NCBI RefSeq assembly: GCF_000337675.1
Contig: NZ_AOIB01000040.1
Location: 1-39,945 of the forward strand
Origin: Natronococcus amylolyticus DSM 10524
GTDB taxonomy: Archaea > Halobacteriota > Halobacteria > Halobacteriales > Natrialbaceae
Direction: 5' to 3'
DNA length: 39,945 nt
The notes under the pieces are model-generated. The model searched no databases and had not been told where the DNA came from. It saw only the letters and a program-made list of their open reading frames with translations. A program made the translations under genes and the position numbers. Shown here in pieces: positions 34,739-39,945 of this stretch; the first letter of the stretch is position 1, and every line of letters starts with the position of its first letter.

Positions 34739-35125
34739 ATGCTTCTCGCCATCTCCGATCCGGAGTCGTTGACCGCTCCGTCGGCCGAAGCCGCCGACGA
34801 GACGAGTGCGACGTTCGACCTCCTCGCGAACCGGCGCCGGCGTCTCGTCCTCCGGCGCCTCGCGGAATCCGACGCGCCGGTTTCGGTAGACGACCTCGTA
34901 GATCACGTGGTACTTGCGGAGGACGGCTCCGAAAGCAGGTCGGTCGCCAGCGTCGGCGACGCAGTTATCGGAACGCGTCGCCGCGTTCGGCTCTCGCTTC
35001 ACCACGTTCACCTTCCGAAACTGGCCGAGGCCAACGTGGTCGACGTCGACTCGGGTTCGCACGCCGTCTCTCTCGGTGAAAACGGATCCGGGCTTCTGGG
35101 TCGGCTGACCCGAATCGACGAGTAG
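34739..35125 (+). CDS. DUF7344-type winged-helix regulator
   Basis: The 128-residue product carries the haloarchaeal DUF7344 pattern: TFDLLANRRRRLVLRRLAES, then VSVDDLVDHVVLAED, then RVRLSLHHVHLPKLAEANVV and DVDSGSHAVSLGENG. This is a winged helix-turn-helix with Arg-rich recognition parts, so it probably binds DNA as a small transcription regulator. Its targets cannot be read. It is convergent with the universal stress protein gene. A second member of this family lies at 39301-39717. Confidence 0.85.
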   Translation: MLLAISDPESLTAPSAEAADETSATFDLLANRRRRLVLRRLAESDAPVSVDDLVDHVVLAEDGSESRSVASVGDAVIGTRRRVRLSLHHVHLPKLAEANVVDVDSGSHAVSLGENGSGLLGRLTRIDE

Positions 35126-38380: not shown

Positions 38381-38887
38381 GACCCGCGCCAGTTCCTCTC
38401 AGCGGGCCAGTCGTCGATGCCCGTCGACAGCAATGGCGTCCCGTTCTCCGGCGGCCACGTGGTCGCCTCAGGAAACCTCGCGGGCGACCTCTACGCGAAC
38501 GTGATGGCCGAGGGGACCGGGCGCACCCTCGCCACCCGTCTCTACGAGTACACCGACGACCCCGGGATGCAGGACATGCTCTCGTATCTCATCGCGCGCG
38601 ACACGATGCACCAGAACCAGTGGCTCGCCGCCCTCGAGTCGCTCGAGGACCCGGTTCCAGTTCCGGCGAGTTTCCCGCAGGAAGAGGAAAACCAGGAGGT
38701 CAACTACTCGTTCATGTCGACCAGGCGGGACCCACAGTCGGATCCGGAAGCACCGTGGACGCAGGGGGCTGTCCCGGATAGCAAGGGCGAGTTCTCCTAC
38801 CTCGCCGAACAGCCGGGCGACGGATCCGGAATCCCGCCGGAACCGGATCCGAGTACGTACAACATTCCAGAGGAGGAAGACGGGTAA
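38381..38887 (+). pseudogene. 5'-truncated manganese catalase
   Basis: The frame reads DPRQFLSAGQSS and then MPVDSNGVPFSGGHVVASGN, followed by NVMAEGTGRTLATRLYEYTD, MLSYLIARDTMHQNQW, PASFPQEEENQEVNYSFMST and WTQGAVPDSKGEFSY, all diagnostic for Mn catalase. A full enzyme has about 280 residues. Here homology begins at 38381 behind an in-frame TAA (38369-38371), so the N-terminal half with three of the five metal ligands is missing. Counted from the internal ATG at 38417, E32 and H65 keep the 33-residue spacing of the remaining two ligands. It cannot hold the dimanganese site alone. The 156-codon remainder is intact, so decay may be recent. Confidence 0.88.
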
Positions 38888-38954
38888 CCGCTCTCGATAC
38901 ACCTGTCTCAAAACCGAGCTATCCAGCGCCTGCCAGCAGGAGTCGCAAACAAGA

Positions 38955-38961
38955 CTTAAAC
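38955..38961 (+). promoter_or_regulatory. Promoter of the candidate RNA gene
   Basis: CTTAAAC lies about 27-33 bases before the predicted RNA start at 38988. The TTAAA form is common before stable RNA genes in haloarchaea. No protein start follows in a suitable place. Confidence 0.55.
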
Positions 38962-38987
38962 GCTCCAGCGACCTAGCAGAAATACGT

Positions 38988-39150
38988 GCCTTTAGTCCCC
39001 GTCCGAGCGAACCCATTCGGGTGCGATGACAGTACGGCGAACCCGGGCACGTAACATCTCGACCGTGACGGATTCCCGTCACGTCTGGGGACCGAGTCCC
39101 CCGCCCGGCACGAGGGTTAGCCAGCCGACGCGGCACGCCGCCACGGAATG
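38988..39150 (+). ncRNA. Candidate structured RNA with three-way junction
   Basis: The region has no open frame but folds by eye into a compact shape. An outer stem forms from GGC.AAC (39036-39042) and GTT.GCC (39116-39122) with one G-A mismatch. It continues, past a bulge of seven bases on the 3' side, as CCGGGC (39043-39048) with GCCCGG (39103-39108). Inside sit two perfect hairpins: CGTGACGG/CCGTCACG (39064-39071 and 39076-39083, loop ATTC) and GGGGAC/GTCCCC (39087-39092 and 39096-39101, loop CGA). A small ACCC/GGGT hairpin with another ATTC loop is at 39011-39022, and GCGG/CCGC follows at 39131-39142. It is not SRP RNA, RNase P RNA, tRNA or 5S rRNA as far as I can tell. Ends are approximate. 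Confidence 0.6.
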
Positions 39151-39300
39151 ACGCTGGACGTTAGTGTTCCGGGCGACAACTCAGTTTTCTCGAGCGACTG
39201 CGCCGACCAGTGCCGATCGCCGAGCGCACTCGAGATCGATCGAAACGGTTCGGATCGGACTCGTCGTGTTCGGCGATCGCGTCACTCCGAGTCACCGTCG

Positions 39301-39717
39301 TCACTCGCTCGGAGTCGGTGATCCTTCCGTTAGCGGTTCCGCGTAGAGGACCGAATCGAGGGGTTCCTCGTCGGGAACCGGTCCGTCGTCGAGCGTGCGC
39401 ACCCGCCTAATCTCATCGCGCATCGACTCGAACGTCGCCGTGCTCGTAACGTCCCCGCTTCGGCGATCGTACTCGAGGAGTCCGTGTTCGGTGAGTCGGG
39501 GGAGGTGATGGTGTATCAGCGATGTCCTCACACGATGGCGCTCCGCTTCGCTTACCGCGTCCGGCGGACACTCCTGTTCCCAGGCGGTAATTTGACGGCT
39601 CAACTGCTCAATCGACGTGTGCTGGTTTTGCAAAAAGTAACAGGCGGTGTACCGACATCGGGAGCGCGACAACAGTTCAAAAACGGAGGCAACGTCGTGG
39701 TTCGGTGAGTTCGACAT
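39301..39717 (-). CDS. DUF7344-type winged-helix regulator
   Basis: The 138-residue product begins MSNSPNHDVASVFELLSRSR. It follows the DUF7344 winged-helix pattern: CRYTACYFLQNQHTSIEQLS, then WEQECPPDAVSEAERHRVRT, then SLIHHHLPRLTEHGLLEYDR and GDVTSTATFES. The HHHLP segment with following Leu-Thr-Glu-His-Gly is the usual recognition and wing part. It probably binds DNA. An alternative TTG start at 39759 would add 14 residues. The opposite strand begins the edge gene with the palindromic promoter 113 bases away, so it might be a regulator of that gene, which is speculation. Confidence 0.85.
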   Translation of the reverse strand: MSNSPNHDVASVFELLSRSRCRYTACYFLQNQHTSIEQLSRQITAWEQECPPDAVSEAERHRVRTSLIHHHLPRLTEHGLLEYDRRSGDVTSTATFESMRDEIRRVRTLDDGPVPDEEPLDSVLYAEPLTEGSPTPSE

Positions 39718-39829
39718 ATGTACGACTATCTCACCACTCTCGCATAAGAACGGGTCCAAACATGTTTGATGATCTGATGGGTGTTGAATACTTGCTATGC
39801 TCTACAGAGAGGTTTCTGTCGCGTAGGGG

Positions 39830-39878: not shown

Positions 39879-39945
39879 ATGAGTATGAGTGGTGGCGGCG
39901 AATCGGATTTCCCAGAGGGTCTCCCACTCCAGTACTCCCCGAAAC
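39879..39945 (+). CDS. Partial gene at window edge
   Basis: From the ATG at 39879 the frame reads MSMSGGGESDFPEGLPLQYS and continues open to the edge (22 codons). A second ATG at 39885 is in frame. The consensus TATA box and the palindrome in front support a real gene, strongly expressed or tightly controlled. The visible residues do not identify a family. It could also be the start of a non-coding transcript. Confidence 0.45.
   Translation, partial: MSMSGGGESDFPEGLPLQYSPK

Follow-up and report, generated by a model that had tools for sequence, protein, structure and literature searches.

The window (the whole stretch of DNA analysed, 39,945 nucleotides of Natronococcus amylolyticus DSM 10524) ends at an rRNA operon, where the assembly breaks. 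Its last letters (39890-39945, minus strand) belong to a 5S rRNA gene, of which they cover the 3' part, and they almost match the 5S sequence from a same-genus genome. The RNA gene described here lies about 0.7 kb from this operon in convergent orientation. A DUF7344 gene (39301-39759, minus strand) stands between the RNA gene and the 5S gene; a second DUF7344 protein is encoded elsewhere in the window (34739-35125, plus strand). On the other side is a Mn-catalase frame (38417-38887, plus strand) that matches only positions 119-265 of the 284 in the PF05067 profile, with the N-terminal part missing, and is probably a pseudogene remnant. The preliminary description of this DNA had placed the stretch downstream of a broken catalase gene, and the frame is indeed truncated.

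A DNA search recovered the locus in 53 of 61 genomes, its own included. Two blocks of near-100% identity (38983-39056 and 39102-39178) stand out in an alignment of 30 members of the family. Between them runs a linker whose length ranges from 2 to 95 nt among relatives and whose columns are mostly 30–60% conserved. The RNA accordingly extends over approximately 38983-39178, as a first hairpin (HP1, 38983-39056 with its box), a variable linker and a second hairpin (HP2, 39102-39178 with its box). The features, in order along the plus strand, are as follows.

38951-38961, plus strand: BRE/TATA-like element (AAGACTTAAAC), conserved in 30 relatives
38974-38975, plus strand: TA, candidate -10 'WW' element, 93/97% conserved
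38983-39053, plus strand: HP1, first H/ACA hairpin, with covariation (10/20 pairs, 50 sequences)
38983-38990/39046-39053 and 38998-39003/39032-39039, plus strand: lower and upper stems of HP1
38995-38997, plus strand: HP1 5' pocket GUC, invariant; pairs with GAC 3' of the target
39005-39029, plus strand: HP1 K-turn with apical stem-loop, conserved; predicted L7Ae site
39040-39044, plus strand: HP1 3' pocket AACCC, near-invariant; pairs with GGGUU 5' of the target
39054-39056, plus strand: HP1 ACA box, ACA/ATA among relatives
39057-39101, plus strand: variable linker with two small hairpins (39065-39082, 39087-39101)
39102-39175, plus strand: HP2, second H/ACA hairpin, with covariation (9/20 pairs, 50 sequences)
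39102-39111/39164-39175 and 39121-39126/39152-39157, plus strand: lower and upper stems of HP2
39112-39119, plus strand: HP2 5' pocket GAGGGUUA; pairs with UGACCCUC of 23S helix 69
39127-39151, plus strand: HP2 K-turn with apical stem-loop, AUGA invariant and GA nearly so
39160-39165, plus strand: HP2 3' pocket GUUA(GU), invariant
39176-39178, plus strand: HP2 ACA box, ACA/ATA in most relatives

Both hairpins possess the parts by which H/ACA RNAs are recognised: a lower stem, an internal pocket, an upper stem, a K-turn and a 3' ANA box. The archaeal H/ACA K-turn is defined by two G-C pairs, a 3-nt bulge and two sheared G-A pairs (PMC7991803). In HP1, GA at 39005-39006 lies opposite GA at 39028-39029, the bulge is GAU (39025-39027) and the G-C pairs are G39007-C39024 and C39008-G39023; in HP2, GA at 39127-39128 lies opposite GA at 39150-39151 (AUGA, 39148-39151), with a bulge of 3 or 4 nt. 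The first and third A of both ANA boxes are kept in most relatives, the middle base being C or T, and in a few HP2 copies the box is displaced by one base (e.g. GTACAT). The distance from pocket to ANA box is 14 nt in HP1 (39040-39053) and, for two registers of HP2 described below, 16 nt (39160-39175) and 14 nt (39162-39175), so that both hairpins fit the published ruler of 14–16 nt (PMC7991803, PMC4652768). HP1 of one genus (L161, 3201-3277; L162, 3349-3425) has a divergent upper K-turn region (CCGAGG--CCCG...CGGGACGATGA), despite which its pockets and lower stem are unchanged.

Covariance models built for the two hairpins matched the window at 38981-39058 (model R1, HP1, 104.7 bits) and 39100-39180 (model R2, HP2, 109.1 bits), and among 194 sampled genomes of the class they found HP1 in 191 and HP2 in 192. 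The two were adjacent in all 14 named loci tested, and the genera in which the RNA was found include Natronococcus, Natronorubrum, Halovivax, Haloplanus, Halolamina, Natronomonas, Salinibaculum and Salinarchaeum. As a rule there is one copy per genome; one genome (G220) carries two (C1:1714773-1714853 and 3469976-3470056), while nearly all others have a single one. Over 50 class-wide sequences, aligned by fitting to the covariance models, standard pairs occupied 98.2% of the cells in HP1 and 96.4% in HP2. Each hairpin has 20 pairs, of which 10 in HP1 and 9 in HP2 had changed in a compensatory way, and none of 500 shuffles attained the covariation score of either hairpin. Unfitted alignments of 30 sequences pointed in the same direction with fewer changes (4 pairs in each hairpin). 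Outside the stems, the positions that stay constant are those of the K-turn (GA facing AUGA), of the pocket on either strand and of the ANA box at the 3' end.

The same alignments bear on the strand and on coding potential. G-U pairs filled 98 cells and A-C mismatches 8, which places the RNA on the plus strand; an RNA on the minus strand was ruled out by these counts. Open frames do overlap the region mechanically, for example one of 222 aa on the minus strand (38468-39136) and one of 41 aa (39026-39151), so the conservation might be read as that of DNA or of a protein-coding remnant. Given that the changes track base pairing, again with 98 G-U against 8 A-C cells, and that the length of the linker varies irrespective of frame, we assign this reading a practically negligible probability.

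The fold differs from the one first proposed, in which an outer stem (39036-39048 with 39103-39122) enclosed two perfect hairpins in a three-way junction of an undescribed RNA. The complementary segments are there: self-complementarity of the stretch is strong, hairpins are present at 39065-39082 (a central run of 7 bp, loop ATTC) and at 39087-39101 (6 bp, loop CGA), a second ATTC loop is indeed found, and in this species' own sequence the linker folds stably into its hairpins (z −3.39 for 39057-39101), although they are not conserved elsewhere. However, the outer stem resolves into two short helices, one of 6 bp (CCGGGC/GCCCGG) and one of 5 bp (AACCC/GGGTT), which pair the 3' arm of HP1 with the 5' arm of HP2, i.e. 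halves of the real hairpins, and its formation excludes both of the conserved, covarying structures. The junction is also absent from the predicted minimum-energy fold, which is a row of hairpins. The two "perfect" hairpins fall in the linker, the least conserved part of the RNA; they are missing or different in most relatives, and in 30 of these only 84/210 and 96/180 of their cells pair, whereas every cell of the true basal stems does (240/240 and 210/210). The boundaries given for the stretch (38955-39150) end inside HP2, and this interval folds barely better than chance (z −1.46). For 38981-39180 the value improves to −2.70, a stability equalled by 1 of 200 shuffles, because HP2 is then complete. 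We therefore consider an undescribed RNA built on the three-way junction extremely improbable, in favour of the two-hairpin H/ACA architecture.

Upstream of HP1, AA-N3-TTAAA (38951-38960) stands out from variable surroundings in the 30 relatives, with AA kept at 97/90% and TT at 97/100%. CTTAAAC occurs at 38955-38961, as had been noticed. This element and the TA at 38974-38975 match the TATA box and the "-10 WW" element known from haloarchaeal promoters (PMC4983044), and from their position we infer that transcription would start near 38984, close to the 38988 suggested earlier. Conservation, covariation and the TATA-like box thus uphold the central proposal of the preliminary description, a structured RNA with its own promoter.

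Possible targets of the pockets were sought in rRNA. Since no full 23S gene was found in the host assembly, the complete operon of a same-genus relative (L031) was used, and all 797 uridines of its 5S, 16S and 23S rRNA were scored against each pocket. The uridine ranked first of the 797 for HP1 was 23S U2619 (GGGUU[U]A-GAC), and that for HP2 was 23S U1954 (GUAAC[U]A-UGACCCUC). Their sequence context identifies them as the counterparts of Psi2621 and Psi1956 in H. marismortui, for which no more than three pseudouridines are listed in all (PMC2584109). HP2 can also adopt a second register, derived by hand from the sequence, in which UAGU pairs with ACUA and GAGGGU with ACCCUC, placing the equivalent of 1958 at 14 nt from the ACA. 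The invariant 3' pocket would then serve both sites, with GUUA used for the 1956 equivalent (from the scan) and UAGU for the 1958 equivalent (from sequence), and GAGGGUU of the 5' pocket is near-invariant. The helix 69 target was identical, with no variation, in the 19 of 24 genomes in which the pattern was found.

The pairing score alone is not significant, as an equal site was obtained with 50 of 200 shuffled pockets for HP1 and 22 of 200 for HP2, and the pocket edges were chosen after the fold had been drawn, with the known targets in view. The target case draws its weight from the identity of the top-ranked uridines and from pocket bases that do not vary. Together with the pairing of HP1, which consists of 3 + 7 contiguous pairs (only 3 of them in the 5' pocket), the frequency of equal scores could favour an H/ACA-like RNA with a single working guide hairpin, the other being a scaffold or a guide for another RNA. 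GUC and AACCC of HP1 are nevertheless near-invariant across the class, the site that scores best coincides exactly with a known pseudouridine, and the Haloferax motifs are counted among those fully validated, with Blaby et al. 2011 cited for the experiments (PMC4652768). This makes the one-guide reading very unlikely, and we proceed with two working guide hairpins.

In the mechanism that we propose for these two guide hairpins, the K-turn in the upper stem of each would bind L7Ae, and the lower stem with the 3' ANA box would bind Cbf5 (together with Nop10 and Gar1). The unpaired pocket would pair with the 23S rRNA sequences that flank the target uridine, which Cbf5 would isomerise to pseudouridine. 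HP1 (GUC + AACCC) is predicted to act close to the peptidyl transferase centre, on the counterpart of uridine 2621 in H. marismortui, and HP2 on two uridines of helix 69, the 1956 equivalent (GAGGGUUA + GUUA) and, in its second register, the 1958 equivalent (GAGGGU + UAGU). The same genome encodes Cbf5, Nop10 and L7Ae, all detected above the cut-off, while Gar1 scored just under it (26.1 versus 29.3 bits, E 2.4e-5).

The proximity to the rRNA operon recurs in relatives. Based on Rfam matches, 5S or 23S genes lie within 1.5 kb of the guide gene in 9 of 20 loci of the family (L006, L008, L010, L013, L015, L017, L018, L022 and L024), with several of the others cut by contig ends; among 20 loci of other haloarchaeal families, no such linkage was seen within flanks of approximately 3 kb. 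Linkage to the rRNA operon is a feature of part of the Natrialbaceae. In its convergent orientation it could serve to coordinate the supply of guide with that of rRNA, and the rapidly changing linker between the hairpins could be a processing or spacing element, although we regard these ideas as speculative and unlikely to hold.

We conclude that the stretch is almost certainly the gene of the known haloarchaeal two-hairpin box H/ACA guide sRNA, on the plus strand. The evidence from the present analysis consists of anatomy, conservation, covariation, strand, pairing potential and the presence of the protein genes; expression, and the guiding of 23S modifications, would be expected from what has been published on the orthologue. 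That the RNA of H. volcanii, named sR-h45, is an orthologue is itself suggested by architecture, targets and class-wide presence.

Rfam gave no match to the RNA in the window at the gathering score and only chance matches at E values up to 10 (mir-m107-1; a hammerhead at 14 bits), and in 41 related loci it returned nothing except rRNA and tRNA. Release 15 appears to be without a model that recognises the two-hairpin H/ACA RNA, and it is for want of a matching family that the RNA looked unknown. A match to a known family, which the preliminary description had named as refuting its proposal, comes from the literature (PMC2584109, PMC4652768), although not from Rfam. "Undescribed" does not apply; among guide RNAs the preliminary description had excluded those of the C/D type only and left H/ACA guides unconsidered. 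The RNA class is already described, and what was proposed as new is a conserved guide RNA with a housekeeping role. Given the gap in Rfam and its presence in nearly all of the haloarchaea sampled, the RNA is likely to be missed again and again by automated annotation. The main use of the present results is in annotation, for which the 50-sequence covariation alignments would suffice to seed an Rfam family.

Two H/ACA hairpins, HP1 and HP2, were predicted in H. volcanii and other halobacteria by Grosjean et al. 2008 (PMC2584109), "separated by a long spacer", with HP1 directed to Psi2621 and HP2 to both Psi1956 and Psi1958 via alternative structures. The Haloferax motifs Hvo1 and Hvo2 are listed with identical targets (2621; 1956/1958), and the fold of Hvo1 is given as "10/5/9" (PMC4652768), which HP1 here matches with its 5-nt 3' pocket and 9-bp lower stem. 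The RNA of the window is like these haloarchaeal RNAs in having two H/ACA hairpins and a long spacer, and in its three 23S targets, 2621 and, through alternative registers, 1956 and 1958. The comparison with them showed no functional difference; what is genus-specific here is the spacer, in its sequence and in its two small hairpins, and in Natrialbaceae the gene often stands beside the rRNA operon. A further counterpart is the Pyrococcus RNA Pf7/Pab40, of which, by the published description (PMC2584109), stem III is the homologue of HP2 and stem II that of HP1. The Pyrococcus RNA has three adjacent hairpins, whereas the RNA described here has two with a linker between them.
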